DNA of 64,000 nucleotides from Cheilinus undulatus (taxonomy: Eukaryota > Chordata > Actinopteri > Labriformes > Labridae): contig NC_054877.1 of assembly GCF_018320785.1 (NCBI RefSeq), positions 34,246,151 through 34,310,150 on the forward strand, written 5' to 3'. The position numbers and the translations under genes are program-made. Below are positions 827-61,629 of this stretch, one piece after another. The notes under the pieces were generated by a model. That model was not told where the DNA came from. It saw only the letters and a program-made list of their open reading frames with translations, and did no database searches. Within the stretch, counting starts at the first letter, position 1, and the number at the start of each line of letters is the position of its first letter.

Positions 827-3800
827 CTAAAAACAACAAAACAAAACAGCAGCACATGAGAGGCATGTCATTACATGGGTGTTTTAAAAAAAAACTGTGC
901 ATGCAGACTTTTATGAATCAAATCATTATTGTCTGCTCATTCCTCTGCTATCCACACCCTCCATCTTTGTAAAACTTACTGCAACATAGTCATTATTTGC
1001 TGAGGTCAAGAGGGCACACAATGGTAAAGTGACACTGAGAGCCCCCTCTGCTGGCTGAAGGGCAAGCTAGCTCAGGCTTAATGGTGCCCTGATGTTGAGC
1101 AGCTCATTACAGTTAGAATATGATCTTTACCCCCTGGTTTGAATAAATGTCAACATTTTGACTTCAGAGTGACAGCCCTGGCTCACACCAATGCTGAGCC
1201 ATAGTGGAGGCCTACAGAAGTGGGGACCAGCTCCTGTACAAACAGGCCAGAAACCCACTAACGAAGGCCATCAGAGTGGCTTAGAGGAGAAACTCTGAGA
1301 AGCTAGAAAAGCAAATTCATAGCCAACAGCCTGTGGGAATGACCTTAAAAGCTTTTCCACCTGGTTTGAAAAGGATAAGGATATGCAAATCCTTAACATT
1401 ACTTAACATTCCTTATTAATCCCCATTTTTATTAATCGTTTATTTAATCTTTATTTAACCAGGAGAAAAAAACTCATTGACATTAAGTATCTCTTTTTCA
1501 AGAGTGTCTTAGCCAAGATAGACAGCAGAACAAAGTTACAAACAACCAATGAGTAGTCATACAAAATGTCACACCAGTACACTAAAAGAGAAACAGCAAG
1601 TATTTGTTAAGATTGACTACAATCAAAACACCTCACACAAAACATCTGCAGACAGATCTGACTGCCTCCATGTCAACCAAACTCCTCTTAAAAGCTTCCA
1701 ATGAGACCAGCTCCCTAATTTTTAGGTGTTTCTGTATCATTCCAGGCAAAGGGAGCAGCAAATTTAAAGGCCTTTTGGCCCAGTTCAGTTCTGACCCTGT
1801 GGACAGATAGAGATCAGAGATTTTAAGTTCCAGATTTCTTCAGATGTCGGTCAGAAGGTATGGAGGTAGAAGCCCAAGAACATTCTTGTGAATAAGACTA
1901 TGCCAGTTTTCTACATGAGGACAGAGAAGACCATCCCACACGCTCATGGCTGTTTAGCTGATTAGATATTTGTTTGATTGAGCAGTCAAACTGATTGTTG
2001 AGCTAGTACATGTGAAAAAGTGTATTGAAATAGTAGCAGTTAGAAGAAGAAATACATAGTTTTAGTTCTGTTTATGAGATCTAAGAGCACTGTTTATGGA
2101 AAATAAGTACAGTAAACAATGGAGGTTTATTTTTTTAGTAAAACTGTTATTAAATATTGAATCAAAACTTAAGTTCAGTTTCCCATCCTTTGTTTCCGTG
2201 TGTCTGTGTAATATTTTTGAAACCATTACACAGAAACAGATCGAATTTAATTCTTAAACCATGAAGCAAATATTCATGTACATCTGCTGACATCAAAATT
2301 TTAAATGAATAGCTTCATGACAAAATGTGAAAAAGAAACATGCACTTACAATTGGTGTAGGTTATTCTCCGATCAGTGCACGTAAAACGGCTTGTGTAGA
2401 GTCGCAAATTGCATGCAAACTCCTTCGTCTCTCCTTCCCTCACAAACTGTTTTCCAGTCTCCTGAAGCCCATTAACACTATACAGAGAAAGATCCAGAAC
2501 ACAGAAAGCCTCTGCAAACAGAAAAAAAAAAATACATTTTCTCATTTTCTGTTTTTGTATAACTATTTTGAAAACATTCAAAATGAAAAAGAAACAGCTG
2601 TATTGATTTGATTATACCTTTGCATTGGGGAAGTTCTGACCAGGTTTGATCGCTGTAACACGTCACAGTATCTGGACCCTCTAGTGTGTAAAAAGCATTA
2701 CACTGGTATTTCAAATGCATTCTGTGTTCTTGCACAAGAATACCATTTTGAATAACTGGAGCGACTCCACATTGGTCAACTGAAATCAAAACAGAGACTG
2801 ATTAACATTTTCAAAGAACATAGTAGAGTGACATATGTTCACAGCACAGCAAAACATCATTTCAGGGACCAGGTGATTTAACGGACAGTCACATTAGTTC
2901 CACCTCAATGCCTGTTTCAAGAAAGAGCAAAGGTTTGATAGAGATAGCATTTCCAATATGGCATCAGGGGCAGGCTGGCTAATGAGATGTTAGGTAAAGT
3001 TATAGAAAAACACAATATTTCATAATATTAGATAGTATTACAAATAGGTTATATGATTGGGTGGGTTTTGTTAGTTTGTTAGTTTGTTTGTTAGTTTGTT
3101 AGCAACATAACTCAAAAAGTTGTAGATGGATTTTGATGAAATTTTCAGGAAATGTCAGAAATGGCATAAGGAAGAACTGATTAGATTTTGGGACTGATCC
3201 GGATCATCGTCTGGATCCAGGAATTTTTTAAAGGATTCTGTACTATTGGGAGATAGGGCTAATGGTGGAGGTTTGCACTGTTACCACTTTACGCCAGGAG
3301 TTGGTGGACATGAGCAACTTCAATCCCAGCAGCATTTTGGGTGTGTTTCTATTCAAAGTTTTGGAGTTTATAGAGTTTGAAAGACGCACGTCTGGTCGAG
3401 ATATGAGTTGGAGTGTAACAGAGAAAGACGGCGAATTGTAGCGAGAATACTCACAATGCTGGGAGGAATAGAGGAATATTCACCCTCTGCCATGACTTCC
3501 AGTCATCCAGTGAGACCATGGGTGAGACTGTCAGTGCATCTGTTGGCACCAGTAGGCAATGCTTCTGCCATGACAGTCCACCCATTGCGAAGCCAATGCT
3601 TTGCCTCACCGCGTGTCCACCCCACCAGGGAGGGAGTAACCAGTGAATGCTGTGGAGGGGGGCACAGGGGGACGGATCCAGGAATTTTATAAAGGATCCT
3701 TCACTGTTGGGAAGTAGGGCTAATGGCGGAGGTTTGCGCTCTCTGAGTGCTTTTCTAGTTAGATAATATTACACAGCTCTATCTCCCCATACAACCAAAC

Positions 3801-6800
3801 AACCAGTCAGACCTAAACGCACTCACACAGTGTCTCGATGACATCAAATGCTGGATGGCTGAAAGTTTTTTACAAATGAATGAAAGCAAAACTGAAGTCG
3901 CTGTCTTTGGCCCCCCCCAGTGCTATAAAACTGGTATCTAGCAGCTTAAGTGATTTTTCACCTTCATCAAGCCCCAGGCTAAGAATATTGGAGTGATATT
4001 TGACTCTGCATTCACATTTGAAACCCAAGTAAAATCTGTGGTTAATAACAATTTCTTTCATTTAAAAACAATAGCCATATTAAAACCAATTCCTCTCCTT
4101 TAATGATTTAGGAAAAATTATACATGCTTTCATGTCCTCACGGTTGGATCATATTCTGGAATCAGCCAGACATCCCTCTCCAGACTGCAAATGGTACAAA
4201 ACACAGCAGCAAGGCTTCTCACTGTCTCTCAAAAAAGGGATTATGTCACCCGAATCTTACCCTCTCTTCACTGGCTTCCAATACAGTACAGGTTTGATTT
4301 TAAGGTTGCTCTGTTTGTGTTTAAAGCTGTAAATGGCCTGGCACCAGCTTACATTTACAACCTCCTCATCCCTTGTACTACTTCCAGCCCCATCAGATCC
4401 ACAGACATGGGACTTCTGGCTGTCCCTCGTTCCATTCATAAAACTTAGAGGGGACCAAGCTTTTGCAGTAAAAGCCCCTCAACTGTGGAACAGCCTCCCA
4501 CCCTCAATCAAGTCTGCCCCCTCCGTTGACTGTTTAAAGTCCCGTCTCAAAACGTATGTCTACAGTCTAGGTTTTGAGTCTGAAGCCCAGTGACCTGGTC
4601 TTAATATTTAACATAGCTCCAACAACTTCTATTTTTGTATCTTTTGTATCATTGAATATGACAGGGCCTAGTATGGTACTTTGTGGAACCCCTTTTATTA
4701 ATTAAACTTTCCTTTAAGCTGTCAGCAAGATAAAAAAAAAATAATAATGGTGAAGTTATACCAAGAAACACCAAGAATTTGATTGATTTACCTGGTATAA
4801 AAGTGGGTATACTATCAATAAATCCAGAGGTGGTAGAAGATCCTGTAAGACAGAGAGCAGATATACAAAATAAAGCTTTACAGACATGGACAAAATGCTG
4901 CAATATCACAGCTAATCACTAGGGCAATGTTGAACACAAAAGTTCAAGCCAAAACAACAAAACAGATGATTAAAAATGTCTGACTTTTACTGAAATTGCT
5001 GAGGAAATCTCATGATGGTCAAATTGTTAGTAACTACAAAGATATGATGTACTGTATATTAGCTCACCTGGGAACAGAGAAAGACTACTACAGAATGACT
5101 AGACAGCAAGGATGACAGGAGCAGCAACAAAAGAGTTGTGGTGATCCGTGTTAGACAGCGACCTCTACTGAATTCATTTTTCTACGCCTACCCCAGGTGC
5201 ACATGAGTGTGTAGGCCGTGATAGTTGTATCATCTAAATTGCATAGATTCATTTTCAAACATAAATGCAGCATACAGGAGCCTTAACTGTGAATGGTGTG
5301 AGCAGCACCAGTGTTTGGTAATTCATCCTTTTTTACATCTTCAAACATTGTTTTTTTCCCCAAATGACTGCATAATGGCTGATTAAAACATGTATAAACA
5401 GCACCAACTCAGAGATGCCACTTGTTCTGCAGCACATTCATGGGAGCAAATAATCCCCTTTTTGGGTGACTGCTGAAGTCAGCCCAACACATGGGTCTGT
5501 ATGTAACTGACTGACTGGTTGGTAACTGAATGACCATACTTTCAGAGACATACATACAGAGGACCTGCTTCAGCATGAGTATGTGATGGGGTATAGGGTT
5601 TCTTGTTGTGTGAATGCTTTTATACAATGCCTGCTAGTGGAGTGATTAGCTCAGACTTAGCCACAGTGACACTTTTGTCAGAGCTGGACAACGTGTCTTT
5701 AATAAAACGAGGGCAGAGAGCAACACAAAAAGCTTTCTGTGACAGAAGAGATGTTTTCGCTCTACTTCTGTTCTGCACATGCGCACAACGCAATTTGCCA
5801 CTCTGATTGGCCTGTCATGAATGTGACAGACAGCACGTTTGTCCAATCACCCTCTGAAGATTTTCTGAAAAGTCATGCGCTTCCCAAACTTTTTTTGGGA
5901 GCTTTCCCAGGCAAATGTCAAATATATTTATGAATTGGATATACGTATGAGTTGATCTGGTGTGTCAGGTTTGATGTTTCATGCTGTAAGGGCTTTATGT
6001 TTTTAACTTTTAGGACCCTTCAATTCTCAACCCACAGAGATAAGGGACAGCACAATTACACACCCAAAAAATAATCACTCTGCTAGAACACACAATTCAG
6101 TCAGGCATTTCAACTGGCATCCCAGATAATTGTGGTCAGCCATGCACTAGGTTTTTACGTAGTCTTGTTTAAAATCAGAAAATGTCTTTTTGACCTTTGA
6201 CCAGCATGTTTTTTCGTACTTTTTGTGGAAGACTCCCAAAATGCCATTTCTCTTGTGTTTGGCCATGAGAACAGATTAGAGTTTTCCAGCAGGTGACTTT
6301 TTCAGCCTTAATAAAACAAATTTTTGAATTGTAGGTGGTGGAAGCATTTCCTAAATTTGAGGCAACAGAAATACATTGGACACTGCTAAGGTTCATGCTG
6401 CATTATTTGCTGGTGGCCGATGTTTATCAGCAGGACATGTATCAGTCTTGACTGATGTGAAACTGCATTCATGCTCAAAAGCTGCGCTTATTCCACTTAC
6501 TGCATGTTGGGCCTTCAGTCCAGTTTCCAGCAATGCAGATGATGGATTTTTTACTCCCTGCATTCTCCACAGTGTATCCAACTTGACATTCATACTGAAG
6601 CTCTGAATCAGCAGGAAACACCTTCTGATATCTCTGACCAATGATGACCGCATGAGGGATTTTTGGGGGTACACCGCATGAATTGATACTGACTGTAAAA
6701 AACAAACACATCATCAGTGGGCGATTGCTTTAACAGGTGGCAATGAGGTCAGTGTAGTTATTGTAAGTTTCAAGAATAAAAACCTTTGATTTAATGTTAC

Positions 6801-13506: not shown

Positions 13507-16500
13507 CTAAAAAACAACAAAACAAAGGTTTTAAAGGTCACATATTATGCACAATCCACTTTCAGTCTTTTCTTGCAAAAAAAATCCATTCCCTCTACCC
13601 CTCTTTCTCCACCTTTTGGAAAAAGGGGGGCCAAAACAAGCCATTCTCAGATTTTCCCCTCATGATGCCACGTGAGGAATTAGCCCCGCCCCCAGGTTCA
13701 GTTGGCCCTCGCCTCTTGGACGACAGGTCCGCCCTTCTAGCTACATCCATCAAGACACATCCATATCCTGAGAGGGCCGGGGTCAGTCAGCTAATAAACA
13801 TTTAAAGGCACAGACACAGAAACAGCTTGTTCTGAGAAGGGCTTAAACAGAGGGGGGTTTTAGAGATTTAAAAATCCAATACTGGACTATTTTTTCAGCA
13901 ACAAACTTCTAAGGTATGTTTTGTTGACCTCTGAGACCGATATAAACTTCTCTTAAAGGGGTAAAATGCATGACCTTAAAAGAAATTGTGCTTCTCTGAA
14001 AAGATAACTAAAAAGAACACATTTGAATGAATTCAGTCCAGTTTGGAGATACCAGCAGTCTAAAAATGAGTTTGTTGAATATTCTGAAACAATTTAGAGT
14101 CAAATAATGACCAAGCCAAGACAGGAGTGGAGTCTTATCTCTGAATGGCAGTTGTGTGTCTTTTATTTTGTAGTAACCTTATTTCAAGGTCTCAAGTCAC
14201 AGATAGCTGGATTTAGAAAAGGGGAAAAATTATTCTCATTTGGTGGGCTATCGAGGCCAGTTTATTTAGTCATGCTATTAATTTTGGAAATTATTTTACA
14301 TCTACCTTTATTATCAATTATGATAATCACTAATGGAAATGATTTATTTAGACTTTATCTTTTTCTTAAAATTTGATACAGAAACTTCAGCCCGTAGACT
14401 CTCCTGTCTCCTCCTCCATCAGCTGCACATCAGTACGCAGCTGATGAAGGAGGAGACAGGATTAAAGCTTACATGTTAAAGTTGAAAAAGATAGTTGTAA
14501 TCACTTCCAAGAAGCAGATAACATTGAAAAAAGGGAAATATGTCTCATTCTTTTTCCTTCTTCACTCTAATCAGGAAGCTACGATGGAGTATTAGGGCCA
14601 CACAAAGAGAAAGAAAAAAACAAGAATTAATTTTTTTTTAACATTACGAGAAAAAAGTTGTAATATTATGAGAATGAAATCATAATATTACGAGAATGAA
14701 ATCATAATATTACGAGAATGAAATCATAATATTATGAGAATGAAATCGTAATACTATGACTAAAGTAAAGATTGTCTGCCAGGGCGCCGCCTCAATTAAA
14801 ATGAGCAATGTTGAGCATGTTGTGAAGCTATACTTAAGTACTGGTTTCACAAATAAGGAAATACTTCATCTTTTGGCACATCAGCATCAAATTCTGATCA
14901 GAATCAGGACAATACTCCATCGTAGATCCGCAGCTCCGCGGCAGACTGTCTTGTAATATTTTACTCTCGTAATATTACGACTTTATTCTCATAATATTAG
15001 ACTTTTTTCTTGTAACATTACTATTTTTTCTTGTTACAGTAGGACTTTATTCTCGTAATATATGACTTTATTCTTGTAATAAAAAAAAAAAAATATATAT
15101 ATATATATTCTTGTATTTTTTTCTCTCTTCGTGTGGCCCTATTACTCCGTCCTAGGAAGCGCTGTACTCTAAGAGAATCCACAAGGAATTGAAGGCTGTA
15201 GGAGAAAAAAAATGTCATCAAAAATGCATTTTGGCCCAAAGAACTGCCGCTCCCTGGATACGCTCCTGTACTGTATTCTGTAAATCCTAAAGATGGTTGA
15301 GTGAGAAAATCCTTGCAGATAAACAGATTATGAAATACTCAGACCAGTCCATCTGAAAAATAAGTACAGTAAATAATGAAGGTTTCTTTATTTAGAAAAA
15401 CTGTAATTATATATAAATATTGAATAATTATGGTATGTGTGTCTATGTAATACTTTTAAAACCATTACAAAGAAACTGATTGAATTAGCTAAACTTTAAT
15501 CCATGAAGCAAATATTCATATACATCTGCTCAAAATTTTCAATTAATTGCTTTAAGGCAAAATGTGAAAAAGAAACATTAACTTACAATAGGTGTAGGTT
15601 ATTCTTCGATTTTTGCAAGTAAAATGGCTTTCATGGTATGGCCGAACACAGCTGACAACCTTCGTATTTCCTTCCTTCACCAATAGTTTTCCAGTCTGCT
15701 GAAGCCCATACACACGATACAGAGAAAGATCCAGAACACAGAAAGCCTCTGCAAACAGAAAAAAAAAAAACATTTTCTCATTTTCTGTTTTTGTATAACT
15801 ATTTTGAAAACATTCAAAATGAAAAAGAAACAGCTGTATTGATTTGATTATACCTTTGCATTGGGGAAGTTCTGACCAGGTTTGATCGCTGTAACACGTC
15901 ACAGTATCTGGACCCTCTAGTGTGTAAAAAGCATTACACTGGTATTTCAAATGCATTCTGTGTTCTTGCACAAGAATATCATTTTGAATAACTGGAGCGA
16001 CTCCACATTGGTCAACTGAAATCAAAACAGAGACTGATTAACATTTTCAAAGAACATAGTAGAGTGACATATGTTCACAGCAGAGCAAAACATGTTCGAT
16101 CATTTCAGGGACCAGGTGATTTAACGGACAGTCACATTAGTTCCACCTCAATGCCTGTTTCAAGAAAGAGCAAAGGTTTGATAGAGATAGCATTTCCAAT
16201 ATGGCATCAGGGGCAGGCTGGCTAATGAGATGTTAGGTAAAGTTATAGAAAAACACAATATTTCATAATATTAGATAGTATTACAAATAGGTTATATGAT
16301 TGGGTGGGTTTTGTTAGTTTGTTAGTTTGTTTGTTAGTTTGTTAGCAACATAACTCAAAAAGTTGTAAATGGATTTTGATGAAATTTTCAGGAAATGTCA
16401 GAAATGGCATAAGGAAGAACTGATTAGATTTTGGGACTGATCCGTATCATCGTCTGGATCCAGGAATTTTTTAAAGGATTCTGTACTATTGGGAGATAGG

Positions 16501-19500
16501 GCTGATGGTGGAGGTTTGCACTGTTACCACTTTACGCCAGGAGTTGGCGGACATGAGCAACTTCAATCCCAGCAGCATTTTGGGTGTGTTTCTATTCAAA
16601 GTTTTGGAGTTTATAGAGTTTGAAAGACGCACGTCTGGTCGAGATATGAGTCGGAGTGTAACAGAGAAAGACAGCGAATTGTAGCGAGAATACTCACAAT
16701 GCTGGGAGGAATAGAGGAATATTCACCCTCTGCCATGACTTCCAGTCATCCAGTGAGACCATGGGTGAGACTGTCAGTGCATCTGTTGGCACCAGTAGGC
16801 AATGCTTCTGCCGTGACAGTCCACCCATTGCGAAGCCAATGCTTTGCCTCACCGCGTGTCCACCCCACCAGGGAGGGAGTAACCAATGAATGCTGTGGAG
16901 GGGGGCACAGGGGGACGGATCCAGGAATTTTATAAAGGATCCTTCACTGTTGGGAAGTAGGGCTAATGGCGGAGGTCTGCGCTCTCTGAGTGCTTTTCTA
17001 GTTAGATAATATTACACAGCTCTATCTCCCCATACAACCAAACAACCAGTCAGACCTAAACGCACTCACACAGTGTCTCGATGACATCAAATGCTGGATG
17101 GCTGAAAGTTTTTTACAAATGAATGAAAGCAAAACTGAAGTCGCTGTCTTTGGCCCCCCCAGTGCTATAAAACTGGTATCTAGCAGCTTAAGTGATTTTT
17201 CACCTTCATCAAGCCCCAGGCTAAGAATATTGGAGTGATATTTGACTCTGCATTCACATTTGAAACCCAAGTAAAATCTGTGGTTAATAACAATTTCTTT
17301 CATTTAAAAACAATAGCCATATTAAAACCAATTCCTCTCCTTTAATGATTTAGGAAAAATTATACATGCTTTCATGTCCTCACGGTTGGATCATATTCTG
17401 GAATCAGCCAGACATCCCTCTCCAGACTGCAAATGGTACAAAACACAGCAGCAAGGCTTCTCACTGTCTCTCATAAAAGGGATTATGTCACCCGAATCTT
17501 ACCCTCTCTTCACTGGCTTCCAATACAGTACAGGTTTGATTTTAAGGTTGCTCTGTTTGTGTTTAAAGCTGTAAATGGCCTGGCACCAGCTTACATTTAC
17601 AACCTCCTCATCCCTTGTACTACTTCCAGCCCCATTAGATCCACAGACATGGGACTTCTGGCTGTCCCTCGTTCCATTCATAAACTTGGAGGGGACCAAG
17701 CTTTTGCAGTAAAAGTCCCTCAACTGTGGAACAGCCTCCCACCCTCAATGTAGTGTAGGTTATTCTTCGATTTTTGCAAGTAAAATGGCTTTCATGGTAT
17801 GGCCGAACACAGCTGACAACCTTCGTATTTCCTTCCTTCACCAATAGTTTTCCAGTCTGCTGAAGCCCATACACACGATACAGAGAAAGATCCAGAACAC
17901 AGAAAGCCTCTGCAAACAGAAAGAAAATACATTTCCTATTTTTGTATAACTATTTTGAAGCCATTCAAAATGAAAACGAAACTGCTGTATTGATTTGATT
18001 ATACTTTTGCATAGGGGAAGTTCTGACCAGGTTTGATCGCTGTAACACGTCACAGTATCTGGACCCTCTAGTGTGTAAAAAGCATTACACTGGTATTTCA
18101 AATACATTCAGTCTTTTTCCACAAGAACACTATTTTGAATAACTGGAGCGACTCCACATTGGTCAACTGAAATCAAAACAGAGACTGATTCACATTTTCA
18201 AATAACAGTAGAGTGACAAATGTTCACAGCAGAGCAAAATGTGTTGTAATTAATTACACACATTATTTTGTTTATCTGTAGTTTTCTTAATAAGTTAGAT
18301 CATTTCAGGGACCAGGTGATTTAACTGACAGATGGGTCACTGTAGCTGTTAGCCAAGCTGTCCACCTCTATGCCTGTTTCAGGATAGATCAAAGGTTTGG
18401 TACAGATAGCATTTCCAATATGGCATCAGAGGTAGGGTGGTGATTGGGAGGTTCGGGAAGGCTCATCATGACAGGAAACTGAAGGGTTGGTAGGTTTCTG
18501 AGTTTAAATCTTAAACTTACAACATGGAGAAAAGACAAGAAATGGGTGGTGGTGAATAACAAAGAATGAAAAAGGAGCAGAGTGTTAGCACAGAGTACAG
18601 TTACACTTGTGTGCAGCTTTGTCAGAGAGAGGCTGCTGATGACTAGTCTTGCTCTGAATTTTGAATCTGACAGGGCCTAGTGCGGTACTTTGTGGAACCC
18701 CTTTTTTTAATAAAACTTCCCTAGAAATTGTTAGCAAGAGAAAAAAAATAATGGAAAAGTTATACCAAGAAACACCAAGAATTTGACTGATTTACCTGGT
18801 ATGAAACTGGGCATATTCACTCTGTCATTTAAACCAGAGGTGGTAGAAGATCCTTGTCCAGCAGTCTATGTTTCTCCTGCAAACTGGGGCTAAGTTTCAG
18901 AATCAATGCGTATACAACTATGGTGTGTATGTAACACCTTAGACAAAAGACCAGGGCACCTGTGCATCCGAAAGACCCCTAAACTTCCCCAAAGCTGCCT
19001 CAAAAATGCCTGTAGGAGCCTGACTCAATTCAACCACATTCAAACCTATAGATACATCAAAACTGCTTTTGTATGTGAGATTTTAACACATTTATGACTG
19101 AAAAGGATTTTAAAAATGACTGAAAAGACATGAGGATGGTCTAGACAAGTCCTGATCAAAATTTTAAGACCAGTTGAAAAACTGCAAGAATTTACATTTT
19201 GCACTGTTGGATCTTAAGAAGGTTCTAAGTAGAGCTTCAAAATGCAAAAAGAAAAAATGGGAGTGAGACAAAAAAACATTTGTGTAAGCAATTTCTTGAA
19301 AACAACAATTTCACTGAAATAGGCTGTTCATCAGCTGATCAAAAGTTTAAGACCACACCTCAAAAAACCCTCAAAACAGAACTAAAAGTTTCGGAAAAGG
19401 GCTCAGTAATGAGTAGCTCCACCGTTCTTCTTGTTCACTTCAAAAATTTGTTTTGGCATGCTTGATGCGAGTGTTTCCAGGAGGCTAGTGGGAACGTTGC

Positions 19501-22500
19501 TCCAAATGATGAAGATGGATTCACAAAGGGCATCCACTGTCTGGAACTAGGGATGGGTAGCGAGTTTGGTACTTTTATAAGCACCAACCGAATTCCATCG
19601 GTACTACTTAGTACCGATTCACGTAAAATCAAACAGTACCATGTGTCGGTACCTAAACGCATCCTTGTGACTGTAAGACAGTGGAAGAGTTGTCAATTTT
19701 CCATGCCGGACGCGAATGCAGCATTGCACGCACGTGAGTAATGACGTCGGTAGCAGCTTAATGAATCAACAAAACAAACATGGTTGACCGGCAGCGGTTA
19801 AAGGTGGCACACGACTTTTGAAAATACGATGCAGGTTACGCTGCAGTATTTGTGACATGAAGTTCAAGATTTACTACAGCAAAACTTCTAACCTGAGGAA
19901 GCAGTGTGATGGTTGATGATTCAGATTGGCTCCCGCTGTTTCCTGCTTGTTCGCCTCTCTCTGCCTCTCAACCATGGAAATATAGTAAAGGGAAAATGCA
20001 AATTCTTGCAATTTTTTCATCTAGTCTTAAAATTTTGATCAGGAGTGTATATTCTATACAAGTCTGTACCTCCAACAGGTTGTCTGTCACCTCCTTGCCT
20101 CGTAGATCAACCATGTCCAGTATTTGGTCTGTCTACTCCATCTAAGTGAAGATTAAAAAGAAGATGAAATACACAGTATATATGCTCTAAGAGTGACTAG
20201 ATCTAGTGATGTTCTGGTTAGTCTTTAATGTTGAACAGATCAATGAACTACCTCCACTCCCAGTTCGTGTCCCACTGCCAGGAGATGTAGAATGGCCCCT
20301 GGATGATTTGGCTTCTTCTGGGCCACCGTGTCCAGCATCTGGTGTTGTTTGTTTGCCTGAATGGTAGCGCATTAGTTATGCAAACTAAAAACTGTAGAAA
20401 ATCAGTACAAAAAAATCAGGAACCCCTCTCCAAGACATGACAAATGCTTATGCAGCTTGCTGCTGTGAGCTGCCGTCTCTATTTGAAATAGCTCATCCAT
20501 AAGTCCACATGAAGATGATGAGCTGGAAGGGGAGGAGGCACTTTTCCAATTTTATCACGAGGCCAGAAATCTTTGAAAGAAATCTTTCAAAAACTTCTTT
20601 AAAACTAAAAATGCTATTGTGATTTATTTGACAAATAACAAGCTGAAATAAATAAATAGTCCTTTTTCACACATAATAACCAAAAACTTGATATTTTGTA
20701 TGGCCTCCTTTGGTTTTGATAAGAGCTTGCATTCTTGCTGGCATTGTTTTTATATAGTTTTCCACAGTCGCTTTTGTTATTGAGCTCCAAATAGTTTTTA
20801 GCTGTTCCCACAGACTTGCTTTAGATGAAATTTTTGTGCAATCAATCTTTAAATCTACTAAATCCCACATTTCTTCAACAGGATTCAAATCTGGTCTTTG
20901 ACTTGGCCAGTCCATCAGTTCCAGTACTCCAGATTCCTTTTTCTTGGTCAAATATATTAACATAACATAATATAGCATAACATTCAACCACTAAAACTAG
21001 TTTTTCTGTTCAGGAATGCAAGTCAATAAATACAAATTGACATATCAACCAAGAAATAATAATGTGCTTTACTATTTTTTCAGTTTTTTTGTAAATCAGT
21101 CAATTTGAAAATTCATGGATAATAATAATAATTATATTTTAGCATTAAAAATGTCATTTTAGTTAAAGAGCTTCTACATATTGGTGTATTAACCATTGCA
21201 GAAACATAAAAAATGATTTAGGTAATTACCAATGCTGTTAATTTAGGGCAGCTGTGGCATAAACCTTACTTTGGGTGGTGGCTTAATAAATTTGTTAAGC
21301 TCTGTATACTAAAAATTAGTGGAGGTTTAGGCTGAACCAACACACCTATGTCAGTTGAGGTCTTTTTCTTTATTTATCATCATTCTTTAAATGTAAGTGT
21401 GTTTTAAGGGCTAAAGTTTTTATTCCTTGGTCATCCTCAAACCTTAAAGTGTATCCAAAAGGACTGAAATCTCTTGTCTGAAAAGCATATTTAAATATCT
21501 AGCTAAAATGAATCTGTAAATATTGGCATATTGGTGAAAATCCAATATCCTGCATCCCTATCCACTTGTTGTGTACGCACCCAGCCAAGAGATGTCATTA
21601 GCTCTGCACAGTTAGGGGAGCAATCCCTCTTCTGGGTCCTGTTACAAATTGCTCCAATTACTTTTTTTGTGTGATGACTTTTTAATCATTTAAAAAAATC
21701 TTAATCTTGGCAGGTCAGGTTTCTAAGCTCCTAAGCCTGGCCTTTCTGTAATTCTTGCTGACCAGTGGTTTGCATCTTCTGCTGTAGCTTTTGTACTTTT
21801 TTCATGAAGTCTTCTGCAAACAGCAGATTGTGATACCTTCACTCCTGCTTTCTGGAGGTTGTTGCTGATGTCACTAAAATCTTTCCGTTATGTTACAAAT
21901 AATGCTATCTTCTAAGTTGTGTATCAGATATAAATGTAAATACCTTGAAATAAAGGCTGAAATGTTGATCTCTTGTCTCATATTCATCTCTTGATGTCAA
22001 AACCAAATGTTTTCAGTCTACAGCAAAAATAAATGAATTGGCCCCACTGTTTCTAAACTTTTTGAGGGGAGTGTATTTGCTGATTGCCCATGTTCACCAA
22101 CAGGGATCCACCAGGGGTTACTGAATAAAACTAAAGCATCAATGCTGCATAGCTCAGCACATAGTTCACTTACTGCATGTTGGGCATTCATTCCAGTTTC
22201 CAGCCATGCAGATGATGGATTTTTTACTCCCTGCATTCTCCACAGTGTATCCAACTTGACATTCATACTGAAGCTCTGAATCAGCAGGAAACACCTTCTG
22301 ATATCTCTGACCAATGATGACCGCATGAGGGATTTTTGGGGGTACACCGCATGAATCGATACTGACTGTAACAAACAAACACATCATCAGTGGGTGATTG
22401 CTTTAACAGGTGGCAATGAAGTCAGTGTAGTTATTGTAAGTTTCAAGAATGAAAACCTTTGATTTAATGTTACACAGACACATTTACAGAGCTAAGGTGT

Positions 22501-23592
22501 AAAGTGTCTGACTTACTCTCACACACAGGCACAGACGACCAGGCTCCATTCAAACAGATGGCTGTGGCACGCCGGTTTTTCAGTTCATACCCGTCCTCAC
22601 ATGTAACCCTGATTGTGCTTCTATCATGATACCAGCCAGTTCGTCTTTTATTATATTTTCCATTTGGTATCTTAAGGGAAAGACAGGCTTTTTCATCTGT
22701 GAGCAGAAGAGGGAATGTTTAAGATAGCAGCCAAAATCTGTGGAGGAGGTGCTTATTACTTCAGACCGCTAGCATTAGCTTAGCCTCATTGATTGAGCCT
22801 TGAGCCACAAGCAAGGTAAACCAAGAAAACACAGATAAGATGACAAATGCTAGGAGACAGCTAAAAACACAAGGACAGCTAAAGATTGAAGTACTGGAAG
22901 GCAAGCATCAGGTGTTAAACCATAGCCTGACTGACATGTACAAGTTTTGGCCCATTCAGTGAAATGTTGGCGTGGAAAATACTGTTTTATGTTTCATAAA
23001 ATGATTTGCAGGTATCTAACACTGAAATTTCAAGTTTTCTAAACTTACAGTGCACAAGCCTGTTCTACACAGATTATGCTCATTACAGCAAGAGGATAGA
23101 GACCAAATCTAACTGATTCAATGTAAAATTGATCAACATTTGCTAAAGATGACACATAATAAATATAAAATGTGAAAGAGACATGCAGTTTGAGATGAAA
23201 ACACCACTGTGGACTTTCTCATTCAGACAAACCAGAACACCTTACCTATACATCGTGGCTTACGAGACCATGCTCCATCCTGACATGTGCTTGTTGCCCA
23301 CCATCCCTCCACTACTAGTTTGCGTCCACTATCACAGGTGTAAGAAATCTCAGATTCATGAGAATAACTTTCTTGTTCTGGGACAAAATAACCACCATCT
23401 AGACTGGGAGCAGAACAAGGCTGAGCTGCTCTTTGAGCTGGAAGAAAAGAAATTACAACACTGAAATGATATTTAGGCATTAAATAGATTGTTTTATAGA
23501 TTTTTTTATTGATGAAATAATTTAGCGTTCTTACCATGAAGTGCACCTGGAAGCCCAATAAGGAGAAAAAATACAAGATATCTCATTCTCAT
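13306..23592 (-). CDS. Complement factor H-like protein, gene 2 (mosaic, partly decayed)
   Basis: Same family and direction as gene 1. Intact exons: 23535-23592 signal peptide, 23246-23437 CCP1, 22517-22696 CCP2, 22174-22365 CCP3, 20252-20356 hinge, 18796-18852 linker, 15854-16015 CCP19-like, 15587-15748 CCP20-like, 13481-13506 and 13306-13329 tail. Broken or doubtful exons lie between them: hinge exon 20070-20141 has an in-frame TGA, CCP19-like 18005-18166 has an in-frame TGA, and CCP20-like 17753-17909 has lost its donor. If the broken exons are skipped, which phase 1 symmetry allows, the product is 385 aa with no stop. If any is included the protein is truncated. Whether the gene is active is open. 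CCP3 has a fifth Cys (NECPTC instead of TEGPTC). Confidence 0.6.
13529..13980. mobile_element. MITE family 1, copy in gene 2 intron
   Basis: About 450 bp between inverted ends AAAGGTCACATATTATGC and 'gtaaaatgcatgacctt'. Related copies lie at 29261-29706 and 51307-51787. Genes 2 and 3 carry it at the same intron site just after the first tail exon. Gene 1 has the empty site near 880. Confidence 0.75.
14580..15153. mobile_element. Non-autonomous DNA transposon with 38-bp inverted ends
   Basis: Ends 'tacgatggagtattaggg' (left) and its near-complement on the right, flanked by the 7-bp direct repeat AGGAAGC (14573-14579 and 15154-15160). Unit C has a single AGGAAGC at 30448-30454 as the empty site. 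Subterminal runs of 'attacgagaatgaaatcata' in both directions form a long imperfect palindrome. A short plus-strand ORF (MSNVEHVVKLYLSTGFTNKE) resembles the start of uncharacterised fish transposon proteins. Confidence 0.75.
15587..15748 (-). CDS. Gene 2 CCP20-like exon, downstream copy
   Basis: 162 bp, phase 1-1, four cysteines once joined to the tail. It reads DLSLYRVYGLQQTGKLLV with the Cys2-Cys3 loop VRPYHESHF. It looks the same, base for base, as the upstream remnant 17757-17909, so one is a very recent copy of the other. Confidence 0.75.
15750..17752. repeat. Gene 1-derived patch inside gene 2
   Basis: Matches 2512 to about 4507 of gene 1 almost base for base: intron, CCP19-like exon, intron and the inserted LINE fragment. 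The left junction lies in sequence common to both genes, at the 5' end of the CCP20-like exon. The right junction is abrupt: LINE sequence '..cccaccctcaatg' meets 'tagtgtaggttattc' of the gene 2 CCP20-like exon at about 17752. About 155 bp of gene 2 CCP20 sequence flank the patch on both sides. Confidence 0.8.
15854..16015 (-). CDS. Gene 2 CCP19-like exon, patch copy
   Basis: 162 bp, phase 1-1, open and complete. Reads DQCGVAPVIQNDILVQ to WSELPQCK. It comes from gene 1 and differs there at one residue. It is the only usable CCP19 of gene 2. Confidence 0.8.
17753..17909 (-). pseudogene. Gene 2 CCP20-like exon, upstream remnant
   Basis: Keeps the acceptor and 5' part of the exon but loses the donor and the last codons, where the patch joins. 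Read straight on, the frame continues in antisense LINE sequence to a stop at 17635-17637, giving a 45-residue tail after TYT that contains a replacement Cys (TLRVGGC). Confidence 0.7.
18005..18166 (-). pseudogene. Gene 2 original CCP19-like exon with stop
   Basis: Length, splice sites and phase are kept, but codon CGA (Arg in gene 3, after VEED) is TGA here at 18108-18110. The last exon base is A instead of G, which weakens the donor. It resembles gene 3 (31095-31256) more than gene 1. Confidence 0.75.
18796..18852 (-). CDS. Gene 2 Ser/Thr linker exon
   Basis: 57 bp, reading SSTTSGLNDRVNMPSFIP. The donor is normal. The acceptor region was cut by a deletion of about 330 bp, judged against gene 3, which also removed the next hinge exon. 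What precedes the exon is now 'ggacaag' without a pyrimidine tract, so splicing here is doubtful. Confidence 0.45.
19144..20047. mobile_element. Tc1/mariner-type non-autonomous element with a hAT fragment inside
   Basis: Inverted ends of about 45 bp contain 'ctgatcaaaattttaagac' on both sides. TA dinucleotides flank it (19142-19143 and 20048-20049), and gene 3 has the empty site near 32738. At 19550-19912 it holds foreign DNA that starts 'agggatgggtagcgag' and encodes a BED-finger-like piece (YYSKTSNLRKQC), as in hAT transposases. Confidence 0.75.
20070..20141 (-). pseudogene. Gene 2 hinge exon 2 with stop
   Basis: 72 bp, the counterpart of gene 3 exon 32762-32833. Splice sites are kept, but a Gly codon (GGA in gene 3, GHGGS) is TGA here. 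Skipping it would keep the frame. Confidence 0.65.
20252..20356 (-). CDS. Gene 2 hinge exon 1
   Basis: 105 bp, or 87 bp (to 20338) with an alternative in-frame acceptor. Open, encoding KQTTPDAGHGGPEEAKSS then RGHSTSPGSGTRTGSG. Rich in Gly, Ser and Thr. Follows CCP3. Confidence 0.55.
20600..21305 (-). mobile_element. Tc1-like transposon remnant
   Basis: Minus-strand frame 20667-20987 shows the C-terminal DDE region of a Tc1-type transposase: WPSQRPDLNPVEEMWDL, and later KTKGGHTKYQVFG. The N-terminal part is missing. One end near 21305 is the complement of 'tacagagcttaacaaattta', matching the element end at 63563. The element splits an older hAT-like copy that is whole in gene 3. Confidence 0.75.
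22174..22365 (-). CDS. Gene 2 CCP3 exon
   Basis: 192 bp, phase 1-1. As gene 1 except for a few changes, the most notable being NWNECPTC: a Gly-to-Cys change giving an unpaired fifth cysteine close to the last one. Confidence 0.8.
22517..22696 (-). CDS. Gene 2 CCP2 exon
   Basis: 180 bp, phase 1-1, DEKACLSLKIPNGKYNKRR to NGAWSSVPVCE. Complete. Confidence 0.85.
23246..23437 (-). CDS. Gene 2 CCP1 exon
   Basis: 192 bp, phase 1-1. Reads AAQPCSAPSLDGGYFVPEQE to SRKPRCIG. Complete CCP. Confidence 0.85.
23535..23592 (-). CDS. Gene 2 signal-peptide exon
   Basis: 58 bp, MRMRYLVFFLLIGLPGALH, ending in phase 1 before GTAAGA. Confidence 0.85.
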
Positions 23593-23624
23593 TTGTTAGG
23601 AGTTCAATCTTAGCAGAGCAAAGA

Positions 23625-23672
23625 GCTCTTTTCAGATCAGGACACGTTAATGATTGCTGAGGACATTCCCCC
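23625..23672 (-). promoter_or_regulatory. Conserved upstream block of gene 2
   Basis: Same HNF1-like GTTAATGATTGC (23646-23657) and following 'ggacattccccc' as in gene 1. Confidence 0.4.
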
Positions 23673-24346
23673 TGAAATTAAGAGATCTGCACTTAACAAG
23701 TAAACACTTAAACTGTGACTCTGGCATCACACTGTTACTCTCTAGCACCCACACTGTTCACATGGAGCAGCAACATTGCAGACATACACAGGGAACAACA
23801 CTGAAGAGTTACAGCTTTTAAAGACTTATTTATAAGATTGTGCCTCATATTTATCTTTAAATGAGTCCTGGAAATGAATGAGAATTTCAGTCAGATTCTA
23901 TACATGCTTTTACAAGCCATGTGAACTTACCAACATAGAAAACACATTCAGTGACTTTTAAATTATTAAGAGTTTGATAAAGTGAAAAATACTGTTTTCC
24001 TACTTTTGGATAATACTTTAAATGTTCTATTAAAGCTTGTGTTTCAACTCCAGTTTGGTACATTTCATATAACACAGCTTTTTGGAGTGATTCTTCCATG
24101 TTTGTCAAAGCAAACACACTTGAACTAGTTTACATTCCAGATTTCAACAAGATTTCCAGGACTCCTGTGATTAGAGGTCAGCATTGTGAAACACCACACA
24201 CTTTCAGTGGAGAAGTTCGCTCTGAATTGCTTAGCTACTGTGAAATAAACTGACATTGATGGCTGTTCTTTATGTAGTTTTAACTCTGGAAATAGGTTAT
24301 TGGGGGAAAAAAGAAATACAGCGCAGATCCTGGATTATTCAAGAGG

Positions 24347-29204: not shown

Positions 29205-32200
29205 CTAAAAACAACAAAACAAAACAGCAGCACATGAGAGGCATGTCATTACTTGGGTGTTTTAAAGGTACATATTATGCAGAATACACTTTTTCAGGCT
29301 TTTCTAGCAAGTAATGTGCCTGTGGCCTGTCCACAAAAGCCCATTCCCTCTCCCCCTCTCTTTCTCCACCTTTTGGAAAATGTGTGCTGAAACAAGCCAT
29401 TCTCAGATTTTCCCATCATGATGCCATGTGGGGAATCAGCCCCGCCCCCAAGTTCATTGGCCCTCGCCTCTTGGAAGACAGTTCCGCCCTTCTAGCCACA
29501 TCAATTAAGCCACATCCATATCCTCAGATGGGCGGGGTCAGACAGCTCATTAACATTTAAAGGCACAGACACAGAAACAGCTTGTTCTGAGCAGGGCTAA
29601 AACAGAGGGGGTTTTTAGAGATTTAAAGATCCAATACTGGACTATTTTTTCAGCAACAAACTTCTAAGGTATGTTTTGTTGACCTCTGAGACCGATATAA
29701 ACTTCTCAAATAATGAATGAGCGAAGAGAGGAGTCTCATCTCTGAACAGTAGTTGTGTGTCTTTTATTTTACCAGGGTGTTTTTCAACACTCTGGTAAAA
29801 TAACTAACTAGTGTAGTTACCTTATTTCAAGTTGTCAAGTCCCAGATAGCTGGATTTAGAAAAGGGGAAACATAATTCTCGTTTGGAGGGCTATCAAGGA
29901 CAGTGTCTTTAGATAAAGTCATGCTATTAATTTTGGAAATGATTACATCTCCCGTTTTAATCAATTATGATAATCACTGTCATCACCATTGTAGCTCAGC
30001 AGAGAAATATCACAGCTCGTATTTACACAAACAATAAGATCGGTCTTGTTATTATGTAGATATCCACTCAGAATAATTAATTTTCCAAATTCAACTCCTA
30101 TAGCCTTTTTTTTTTTAATCATAGATTTTCTCATAATCGCAGCTGGAGCCTTTTCAGAATGATATTTCTGTTTCCCCTTTTTCTAATATATCTGCTTCTT
30201 GGAAATGATTTATTTAGACTTGATCCTTTTCTTAAAATTTTGATACGGAAACTTCAGCCCGTAGACTCTCCTGTTTCTCCTTAATCAGCTGCACATCACT
30301 GCACAGCTGATGAAGGAGACAGGAATGAAGCTTAGGTGTTAAGTTTGAAAAAGATAGTTGTAATCACTTCCAAGAAGCAGATAACATTGAAAAAAGGGAA
30401 CTATATCTCATTCTGAAAAGGCTATCTTTTCCTGCTGCACTCTAATCAGGAAGCACTGCACTCTGAGAGAATCCACAAGAAATTGAAGGCTGTAGGAGAA
30501 AAATTTGTCATCAAAAATGCATTTTGGCCCAAAGAACTGCCGCTCCCTGGATACTTTCCTGTACTGTATTCTGTAAACCCTAAAGATGGTTGAGCGAGAA
30601 AATCCTTGCAGATAAACAGATTGTGAAATACTCAGACCAGTCCATCTGACACCAACAACCATGACATGTCAAAGTCATCAGATCAGCTTTCTTCATCATG
30701 CTGATACTCTGAACTTGAGAAGGGGGTCTTGACCAGGTCTACATACCTGAATGCATGGCTGTTTAGCTGATTTGATATTTGTTTTATTGAGCATTCAAAC
30801 TAGTTGTTAAGAAAATGTGAAAAAGAAACATGCACTTACATCTGCTGAAGGTTAATCTTCCATTAGTGCAAGTAAAACGTTTTTCCCAGTCTTGCCAAAT
30901 ACAGCTGAAAGACTTCGTCTCTCCTTCCTTCACAAACTGTTTTTCAGTCAACTGAAACCCATTCTCATGATACAGAGAAAGATCCAGAACACAGAAAGCC
31001 TCTGCAAACAGAAAAAATACATTTTCTGTTTTTGTATAACTATTTTGAAGCCATTCAAAATGAAAAAGAAACAGCTGTATTGATTTGATTATACCTTTGC
31101 ATTGGGGAAGTTCTGACCAGGTTTGATCGCTGTAACACGCCACAGTATCTGACCCCTCTAGTGTGTAAAAAGCATTACACTGGTATTTCAAATACATTCG
31201 GTCTTCTTCCACAAGAACACTATTTTGAATAACTGGAGCGACTCCACATTGGTCAACTGAAATCAAAACAGAGACTGATTAACATTTTCAAATAACAGTA
31301 GAGTGACAAATGTTCACAGCACAGCAAAACGTGTTGTAATTAATTACACACATTATTTTGTTTATCTGTAGTTTTCTTAATAAGTTAGATCATTTCAGGG
31401 ACCAGGTGATTTAACTGACAGATGGGTCACTGTAGCTGTTAGCCAAGCTGTCCACCTCTATGCCTGTTTCAGGATAGATCAAAGGTTTGGTACAGATAGC
31501 ATTTCCAATATGGCATCAGAGGTAGGGTGGTGATTGGGAGGTTCGGGAAGGCTCATCATGACAGGAAACTGAAGGGTTGGTAAGTTTCTGAGTTTAAATC
31601 TTAAACTTACAACATGGAGAAAAGAGGAGAAATGGGTGGTGGTGAAAAACAAAGAATGAAAAAGAGCAGAGTGTTAGCACAGAGTACAGTTACACTTGTG
31701 TGCAGCTTTGTCAGAGAGAGGCTGCTGATGACTAGTCTTGCTCTGAATTTTGAATCTGACAGGGCCTAGTGCGGTACTTTGTGGAACCCCTTTTTTTAAT
31801 AAAACTTCCCTAGAAATTGTTAGCAAGAGAAAAAAGTAATGGAAAAGTTATACCAATGCACACCAAAAATTTAATTGATTTACCTGATATGAAAGCGGGC
31901 CTATTATTTCTGTCATCCAAACCAGAGGTGGAAGAAGATCCTGTAAGATAGAGATCACATTTACAAAAAAAGAAGACACAACAAAAGGGATTGCTTCTAA
32001 ATTCTCCTTGACATGCTTTTTCAGATTCACAGTAAAAACATACCATGATTCTTTCTGAAAAATGAAAAAAGACTTTCAGACCTTTAACTACTGAAAGCTT
32101 CATCCATTCTACAATAATATCATGGGTAGCCACCTACCTCCACTAGCAGGCCCTGCCCCACTACCAGTAGGAGTAATGTGTCCACCAGCTGTTCCTCCTG

Positions 32201-41199: not shown

Positions 41200-42483
41200 T
41201 CAGTTTGAGATACCTCCCTCTGAAACAGAAAACTCATTTTCCCTCATTTCAGAATATGCAGACAAGAGGTTTACACTAAACCTGCTTAATGAAACTGCTC
41301 TTGATCTCATCTTGTCAAAGCATGCATTGTGTTTAGTGCTTTGCAAGAGACGCCAGTATTTGAGTATTTCATCAGGACGAAAGCCATGTGATGTTACGAG
41401 ATGGCTGTACCTGCAGCTGGAATAAGACACCCGCCAGTTGTGGAATAGGACTGGACTGGGTGGAGGAGTGGGCTTTACACCAAGCTTGGCCAGACATAAT
41501 CCCACATACACATCTTCCAGATGAATGTGAGGAATATTCAGTGATGCTTGGTAGAGTTTTGTTGCCAAGTCTCCTGAGAAGACATAACCAGTCCCAGAGC
41601 AGAAGGTGGGATACCTGTTACCAGGGTACAGCTCAGGGGGCATGTACCATTTATTGTTTCTGTCTCGGAATGGTGTTTGGTTTTCCAAAATATGACCTGT
41701 GAAGTAATCTGTCTTGGGCTTTATTTTTGGTCGGAGTACACTGTGAATGAGGTACTCAGTGTTGACGAACATGTCGCTGTCTGTCTTCATAACATAGCTG
41801 ACTTGTGGGCAGTGTAACGCCACCCAGTTCAATCCCATCAATATCTTAATGGTCAGGTTGTTGTAGGTATCGCTGAAGTCCTGCTGGATGATATCATGAT
41901 GCCTGTTACTCTCTGCTTCAAGCATCTTCTGCTGCAAAACTCCACCATTTTTTCCAAGCAGAAACAGCCGAATGAAACCTGGAGCCAAACTTTCATTTCC
42001 CCATGTCTGTCGAATGGCGTTTCTGGCTTCCTCTTGCCGAGCCTCTGTGGTTATCAGCAACACCAGAAATGGTGCCTGTCTGCTCTGTGAACATTTTTCG
42101 GGCTCATTGATGATATAAGCATAAGGCCCAGGGGTGATATTGTCTCCGTGTTCTCCCTCCACAGTGACTGCCATGGTGGTTTTAACGTCAGGCACTTCCT
42201 GAGGCGACTGGGCAGCTTCCTTTTGTGTGCTGATGTTGGCAATGGTGGTCTGAGGACTGATAGCCAGCCTAGTTTCGGGTATTTGATGACTCACGTTCAG
42301 TTTGGTTTTTGTGGTGTTTAGTTTATCACCCCAAAACAACTTAGGAATGTGCCTGAACTCCAGTCCTTCTCTGACAGTAGGCTGATTTGCTTGTTGAACC
42401 AAGAAGAGCAGCACTACCAGAAGTGACAGGAGACAGAAGAGATATTTCATGAATGAATGGCAGTGATGTCTTTTCCACTGCAT
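41200..42483 (-). CDS. Beta-1,3-galactosyltransferase 2-like, copy 1
   Basis: GT31 family enzyme of the Golgi that transfers galactose from UDP-Gal onto GlcNAc in a beta-1,3 link, by similarity to B3GALT2. 427 aa, one coding exon as in B3GALT2. Type II membrane protein: short basic start MQWKRHHCHS, membrane segment about 14-30 (YLFCLLSLLVVLLFL), Ser/Thr-rich stem to about 120, catalytic domain from YAYIINEPEKC. Motifs: AIRQTWGNES (156-165), metal-binding DSD in KTDSDMFVN (233-241), EDVYVG (323-328), WRVSYSSC (350-357). The start was chosen because human B3GALT2 begins MLQWRRRHCC; the upstream in-frame ATG at 42658-42660 would add 59 residues that lack homology. A 3' splice acceptor at 42702 marks the likely exon edge. 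The 39 residues after HNAC are unlike copy 2. Confidence 0.9.
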   Translation of the reverse strand: MQWKRHHCHSFMKYLFCLLSLLVVLLFLVQQANQPTVREGLEFRHIPKLFWGDKLNTTKTKLNVSHQIPETRLAISPQTTIANISTQKEAAQSPQEVPDVKTTMAVTVEGEHGDNITPGPYAYIINEPEKCSQSRQAPFLVLLITTEARQEEARNAIRQTWGNESLAPGFIRLFLLGKNGGVLQQKMLEAESNRHHDIIQQDFSDTYNNLTIKILMGLNWVALHCPQVSYVMKTDSDMFVNTEYLIHSVLRPKIKPKTDYFTGHILENQTPFRDRNNKWYMPPELYPGNRYPTFCSGTGYVFSGDLATKLYQASLNIPHIHLEDVYVGLCLAKLGVKPTPPPSPVLFHNWRVSYSSCRYSHLVTSHGFRPDEILKYWRLLQSTKHNACFDKMRSRAVSLSRFSVNLLSAYSEMRENEFSVSEGGISN

Positions 42484-42893
42484 GGTTACAGCAGGACTGA
42501 TCCACTCAGAGAGTCGGCTTATCTCCAGCAGCTCCTGAGCTGGCCTCAATTCCTTAGAGGTAAAGGAAAGTGTATTCGGTTTGTTGTCTAAAGAGCTGTT
42601 ACATGCAGATGATTTCTCATTTCTAACTGTCCAAATCTCTGTGCTTGCTTTACAGTCCAACAGTAGGGTAGGAGTCCACTCTGATGTTGCACATCCATTA
42701 CCTGGGAGACAGAGAAGAAGATATTCATGAGCAATGGGATGGACAGTTAAGTCTAAAAGCGGCTCTCAATTTGCTGCAGTGGCAGGGTGGCCATTGAAAT
42801 GTTTTGAAGAATCCCTGAATAGTCTGTCAACACCCGAGGACCATTGGGGGGGCTGTCACAGATTAACAATTGTTAATCATTAATATAATATAA

Positions 42894-61407: not shown

Positions 61408-61629
61408 GGTTACAGCAGGACTGATCCACTGAGTGTCTGCTTATCTCCAGCAGCCTCTGACCTGGCCTTGGCTCTTAGGGTAAAGGGAAGTGTATTTGAT
61501 TTGTTGTCTCAAGAGCTGTAACCTGCAGGTTATATCAAATTTCAAACCGTCCAAACACTGTTGTTACTTCACAATCCAGCAGCAAGACAGGAGTCCACTC
61601 CAGTGTTGCACATCTCGTGATAACCTGTG

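Follow-up and report, generated by a model that had tools for sequence, protein, structure and literature searches.

A stretch of 64,000 nucleotides of the Cheilinus undulatus genome (C13:34246151-34310150; hereafter the window) was analyzed together with the assembly to which it belongs (1.17 Gb, 46 contigs). The window contains three factor H-related genes on the minus strand, each with five CCP modules, at ∼2-9, 15-24 and 30-38 kb. Gene 1 runs from 8973 to ∼2.3 kb, gene 2 from 23592 to ∼15.6 kb and gene 3 from 37662 to ∼30.8 kb, and each comprises a signal-peptide exon, the CCP exons A, B and C, linker exons and a CCP19-CCP20 pair. Gene 2 carries an insertion of 2,161 bp, a near-copy of gene 1 that lies beside a broken CCP19-CCP20 pair; the structure, origin and possible consequences of this patch are the subject of the present analysis.

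All four CCP-containing queries scored above the cut-off of the sushi model (Pfam PF00084), and in the CCP19-CCP20 query only CCP19 (residues 22-53) was matched, CCP20 being left unmatched. Residues 3-109 of the latter query aligned with the C-terminal module of human factor H (1090-1210) along the length of the module (36.3 bits), and this was the top-scoring of 16 stretches of that chain. The first exon of genes 1, 2 and 3 is hydrophobic, begins with Met and ends in a phase-1 donor; the signal peptide was called from hydrophobicity. With CCP modules, a CCP19-20-like C-terminus and a predicted signal peptide, the genes can be assigned to the factor H / factor H-related family (teleost cfh type).

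As stated in a preliminary description of this DNA, gene 2 has two CCP19-CCP20 pairs, an old one (CCP19 at 18166-18005, CCP20 from 17909) and a new one (CCP19 at 16015-15854, CCP20 from 15748), both on the minus strand like the other exons given below. The patch (15718-17749) was aligned with gene 1 (2481-4508) over ∼2,025 columns with 15 substitutions (0.74%) and 4 indels; the raw alignment had 2,026 columns and 16 mismatches, the sixteenth of which is the junction base and was not counted as a substitution. The claim that 15750-17752 is a near-copy of gene 1 from 2512 to about 4507 therefore held, as the match extends over 2512-4508 with these 15 substitutions and 4 indels, and a separate search gave an identity of 99%. 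A direct repeat made of gene 2's own CCP20 flanks the patch (15592-15761 and 17753-17922). The flanks had been described as identical over about 155 bp; they are identical, with zero mismatches, but the exact repeat measures 170 bp. At the divergence of the patch, the probability of zero differences over 170 bp is 0.28. The left copy holds most of the new, complete CCP20 exon and the first bases of the intron, and the right copy holds the old CCP20, cut before its last cysteine.

Between the repeats, the gene 1-derived segment (15762-17749) reaches the equivalent of gene 1 position 4508 and contains CCP19, introns and part of the interspersed repeats. Its counterpart in gene 1 (CCP20, CCP19 and the repeat; 2348-4508, minus strand) includes a repeat that continues there to ∼4628. 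The new CCP19 exon (15854-16015; 162 nt, phase 1-1) is of the gene 1 type and open, has a donor like those of genes 1 and 3, and shows one nonsynonymous change relative to gene 1 CCP19. The new CCP20 exon (15585-15748, to the last cysteine codon) is of the gene 2 type and also open. Gene 1 supplied only the new CCP19 with its surroundings, whereas the new CCP20 coding sequence, left of 15750, belongs to gene 2 itself; gene 1 CCP19 and gene 2 CCP20 are thus joined in a hybrid pair. The earlier idea of a fresh pair supplied by gene 1 thus applies to CCP19 but not to CCP20.

The homologous junction of the patch (15717-15761) consists of 45 bp that are identical in gene 1 and in both gene 2 copies. 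It falls inside a block that is also identical in gene 3, and the switch lies somewhere within those 45 bp. At the near-microhomology junction (17746-17759), the repeat sequence CAAT (17746-17749) is followed by GTA (17750-17752) and then by the gene 2 sequence GTGTAGG, which is preceded in native gene 2 by CAATAG. The gene 1 repeat has native flanks on both sides and extends to ∼4628. When ten other copies of the repeat were aligned, five ended at 4628 (one of them in a second piece), four within 4625-4639 and one at 4428. The gene 2 repeat stops at the equivalent of 4508, ∼120 bp before the end common to nine of the ten copies. Because the repeat of gene 1 is whole with native flanks and that of gene 2 is cut inside the repeat, gene 1 is well supported as the donor, and it still holds its copy of the transferred segment.

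The first part of the gene 1 repeat (3046-3772) has internal repeats and very many candidates in the genome (5,309 at first look, a figure that also covers the rest of the query beyond the repeat). It adjoins a second repeat (3773-4628) with an open frame, which we take to resemble the tail of a reverse-transcriptase protein. A Pfam search of this open frame found no family, so the label LINE (long interspersed nuclear element) given to the repeat is tentative.

The old CCP19 exon (18005-18166) contains the previously noted TGA (18108-18110), which proved to be in frame, at a site occupied by arginine codons in genes 1 and 3. Its donor is weakened by the loss of the last exon base, a G, and the computed U1 pairing falls from -5.7 to -1.8 kcal/mol. 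The old CCP20 (17743-17909) terminates before the last cysteine, and its stop codon and 3′ end are gone. This exon had been described as lacking a donor. The loss of the cysteine, stop and 3′ end bears out that it is damaged, but the native GTAAGT overlaps the last-cysteine codon in genes 1, 2 and 3 and in a gene left of the window, where further CCP exons were found (A-C at ∼-2.3 to -4.5 kb, CCP19-20 at ∼-23 kb). The exon also gained a strong GT, as the junction created a donor-like AGG/GTGGGA at 17743, ∼10 nt beyond it, with a computed U1 pairing of -8.2 kcal/mol. An AATAAA is present downstream of CCP20 within 216 bases in genes 1, 2 and 3, and one is also visible in the left gene. The last exon of human CFH is exon 23. 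Changes in SCR20 of human CFH are reported to map to exon 23 (PMC1626556). CCP20 may likewise be the terminal exon here; if so, what the old CCP20 lost is a stop and a poly(A) signal, not a donor.

To polarise the 15 patch substitutions, outgroups were taken from the old copy in gene 2, from gene 3 and from further copies of the repeat. Nine are derived in the patch and five in gene 1, and one could not be assigned; of the nine, one is supported by five of six copies, and in three more a single row dissents or has a gap. As each carries its own derived changes, the patch and gene 1 have evolved separately. The old and new copies of gene 2 were then compared with gene 1 and with gene 3, whose CCP19 (within the pair at 30838-31256) is the nearest relative of the old CCP19. 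This four-way comparison covered 360 ungapped columns (162 of the CCP19 exon, 30 of the CCP20 exon and 168 of the intron). Nine changes were unique to the old copy (three in the CCP19 exon and six in the intron), with the TGA as a tenth, one to the new copy and three to gene 3. Eleven of the 360 columns separate the old copy and gene 3 from the new copy and gene 1, and two, the TGA site and 18232, have no simple split.

According to the patch's own clock, 0.05-0.10 disabling changes would be expected in the old CCP19 after the arrival of the patch. The probability of at least two is 0.001-0.005 under a constant clock, and ∼0.09 if the old CCP19 drifted along the whole old branch (intron rate 6/168). 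These values suggest that damage to the old CCP19 preceded the patch. The calculation depends on few changes and an assumed constant rate, and gene conversion can distort it. A further observation, which counts against the overall explanation given below, is that at column 18232 the old copy agrees with the new one and differs from genes 1 and 3.

Beyond the patch, gene 2 (15100-24200) reads as a mosaic that resembles gene 1 in its 5′ part and gene 3 in its 3′ part, the change falling at ∼22.0-22.2 kb. When compared in 200-base pieces, the region from 22.2 to 24.2 kb shows 94-99% identity with gene 1 and, in the pieces that gene 3 matches, 70-91% with gene 3. Outside the patch, the pieces between 15.0 and 22.0 kb that match gene 3 are 85-99% identical to it, with the exception of the piece holding CCP20 (15601-15800; 79%); pieces 15401-15600 and several between 19.2 and 21.2 kb gave no gene 3 match in this comparison. 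A gene 2 intron segment of ∼480 bp (18258-18740) is nearly identical to gene 3 (from 31348) and stands beside more diverged sequence; it is likely a recent conversion tract.

The last 132 bases of CCP20, to the last-cysteine codon, form a variable island with sharp boundaries in the C-terminal domain (2348-2479, 15585-15716 and 30838-30969 in genes 1, 2 and 3), in which 95, 96 and 98 of the 132 bases are identical in the three gene pairs (72-74%). The first 32 bases of CCP20 are identical in genes 1-3, and the comparisons made of the neighbouring intron and CCP19 gave 94-97%. The homologous junction of the patch lies at the edge of this island, and gene 2's own CCP20 was therefore left in place. 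Positive selection on CCP20 was also considered. The ratio of nonsynonymous to synonymous substitution (dN/dS) was 3.47 for genes 2 and 3 and 1.56 and 0.84 for the other pairs (one-sided tests 0.05, 0.32 and 0.70); the three pairwise tests do not bear out selection on this variable segment.

With regard to coding capacity, the signal-peptide exon of gene 2 (23592-23535), CCP exons A (23437-23246), B (22696-22517) and C (22365-22174) and the linker exon L1 (20252-20356) are all open. Linker exon L2 (20070-20141) contains an in-frame TGA and has splice sites as in gene 3. Linker exon L3 (18796-18852) is open with a degraded acceptor tract, which has 7 pyrimidines in 17 positions compared with 11 in gene 3 and 13 in gene 1. 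The internal exons tested have lengths that are multiples of three and phase 1 ends, and a form composed of the signal peptide, CCP A-C, L1 and the new CCP19-CCP20 pair can be read without a stop as far as the final CCP20 cysteine. The suggestion that the new pair could be spliced in while the damaged pair is skipped agrees with these phases and with the open form; rescue of gene 2 is thus possible, and would require skipping of L2, the old CCP19 and the old CCP20.

Several observations weigh against such a rescue and temper the suggestion accordingly. L2 combines its TGA with intact splice sites, so it must be skipped too. Inclusion or skipping of L2, L3, the old CCP19 and the old CCP20 (the last with its cryptic donor) gives 16 combinations, of which only two reach the last cysteine of CCP20, namely those in which all four doubtful exons are skipped or L3 alone is included. 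The cryptic donor at 17743 pairs with U1 more strongly than the scored native donors of CCP19, CCP20, L1 and L2; among all scored donors (CCP19, CCP20 and L1-L3), only those of L3 (-8.3) exceed it, and its use would yield a frame-breaking exon of 167 nt. In its CCP-C exon (22174-22365), gene 2 encodes an additional cysteine, presumably without a partner, at a position occupied by glycine in genes 1 and 3. From the signal peptide to CCP-C, dN/dS between genes 1 and 2 is 1.06 (15 nonsynonymous and 4 synonymous changes), which gives no sign of constraint on the 5′ half of gene 2.

The patch is best explained, in our judgement, by the recent insertion, in one direction only, of sequence from gene 1 into gene 2, which probably took place in one template-switch event. 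The nascent strand in gene 2 CCP20 would have switched to gene 1 through the 45-bp common stretch, and ∼2 kb of gene 1 would have been copied. On the other side, within the gene 1 repeat, the strand would have returned to gene 2 through an imperfect match of four bases and 170 bp out of register; most of gene 2 CCP20 would have been duplicated because of this shift. Read in gene sense, the damaged CCP19 and tail-less CCP20 now stand upstream of a complete module made up of gene 1 CCP19 and gene 2's divergent CCP20, the sole holder of the last cysteine and the stop. An origin of the template-switch type is well supported by the flanking repeat and the junctions, and we infer the single step and the lesions-before-patch order. 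The right join is a point against a simple switch: CAAT is present in both parents, but three extra nucleotides were added, so the microhomology is not clean. In addition, a large imperfect fold-back rich in simple repeats, with outer arms of 62 nt that are 79% complementary, was observed at 14579-15155, ∼440 bp away from the insertion; a role as fork-stalling trigger is only a thought.

The preliminary description had also proposed repair by template switching into gene 1 and back, and the qualification to be made is that a crossover followed by a deletion gives the same product. In this two-step route, genes 1 and 2 would first have crossed over unequally at their CCP20 regions, with a duplication of ∼13.2 kb. 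A deletion of ∼11.1 kb, starting within the repeat and reaching as far as the edge of the second CCP20, would have followed and been sealed by end joining. The crossover in a human CFH/CFHL1 hybrid is reported from a nearby position, the intron between exons 21 and 22 (PMC1626556), and exchanges do occur in the present cluster, since gene 2 is itself a mosaic of gene 1-like and gene 3-like parts. However, the two-step route needs an intermediate of which nothing remains and is less parsimonious; we regard it as possible but rather unlikely. A CCP20 protein search of the assembly gave four matches, all from genes 1-3, which is no proof against further copies because the more diverged CCP20 of the left gene escaped it. 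Misplacement of gene 1 sequence, from the same or the other haplotype, into gene 2 during assembly was also weighed, as a divergence of 0.74% could be allelic. Yet both the patch and gene 1 show derived changes not shared by the other, the window contains no ambiguous bases, the contig spans 50.6 Mb, and a join inside a repeat with extra bases resembles a repair product; a simple misassembly is accordingly very unlikely. The patch ends in an interspersed repeat, as would be expected if retrotransposition had carried the gene 1 sequence along with it. This carrier was rejected with near certainty: the introns are retained, there is no tail, the repeat has lost the end that its copies share, and the duplication at the flanks measures 170 bp. 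Truncated insertions are usually cut at the opposite end, and the usual target-site duplications are far below 170 bp.

The functional outcome is a separate question. Gene 2 may simply be decaying; there is an even chance that it is a decaying pseudogene, or encodes a short three-CCP protein ending in L2, in which case the patch would be inconsequential, and this is compatible with either origin of the patch. The TGAs in L2 (with good splice sites) and in the old CCP19, the degraded L3 acceptor, the CCP-C cysteine and a dN/dS of ∼1 fit this reading. On the other side, the exons for the signal peptide, CCP A-C, L1 and the new pair are all open and bordered by GT/AG splice sites, although the lack of stops in these exons says little given that few changes have accumulated. 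If instead the damaged exons were skipped, as the weak donor of the old CCP19 and the matching phases of the annotated exons would permit, a secreted five-CCP protein is predicted. It is a tentative and, on balance, improbable view that a dead surface-recognition end was re-armed by one repair event, which brought in the intact CCP19 of a neighbour and kept gene 2's own highly divergent CCP20. Were it true, shared exon edges would allow damaged modules to be replaced without loss of the gene's own putative binding surface, and transcripts using the new pair would provide an example of repair by addition, not replacement.

Farther along the window, two similar long open frames (41200-42765 and 60223-61440; DNA ∼87% alike) were observed, which we take to resemble beta-1,3-galactosyltransferases. 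A linkage of teleost cfha genes with b3galt2 is reported in PMC7768046.

Conversion and the formation of hybrids shape the genes of the factor H family, and most reports of this come from human disease. Both processes are already well known in factor H clusters, and the present locus is a further case of that kind. It is a clear small example of cluster reshuffling. The modules from before and after the event are kept next to each other, the junctions can be read and a rough clock is available, so that the order of damage and patch is testable in relatives. Among the papers listed by a literature search with chosen terms were ones on factor H hybrids and conversion but none on an insertion of this kind.

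Among known systems, the template switching (fork stalling and template switching/microhomology-mediated break-induced replication, FoSTeS/MMBIR) described at PLP1 gains involves short microhomology or imperfect microhomeology and small extra bases at the joins (PMC6902434). The imperfect join with extra bases found here may be comparable; in contrast to the PLP1 cases as described there, the other junction of the patch falls within 45 bp of identical sequence, and half of the event can thus be accounted for by ordinary homologous invasion. IRGM is reported as a dead immune gene that was recovered when its coding sequence was restored through mutation (PMC12747553). Gene 2 would likewise be a damaged immune gene that regains an open reading frame, here by prediction only, and unlike in the IRGM account the patch sets a second module beside the dead one. 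A CFH/CFHR3 hybrid formed via microhomology-mediated deletion and FHR proteins with duplicated dimerization domains are described in PMC10894998. CCP exons are reshuffled through end joining or rearrangement in these cases as well, but they represent a deletion or a duplication within N-terminal domains, whereas gene 2 received a C-terminal patch from a paralogue. A parallel is also found in the human CFH/CFHR genes, for which conversion and crossover hybrids are reported and conversion can transfer SCR20 changes (PMC1626556, PMC10894998). As in the CFH/CFHR hybrids and the CFH-CFHR1 conversion of atypical haemolytic uraemic syndrome, neighbouring genes of one family have exchanged sequence at the C-terminal end. 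The human events given in these reports swap the end of a gene or delete genes, whereas in gene 2 a second module was added and the old one retained, with a 170-bp duplication and a junction at the edge of the CCP20 exon.

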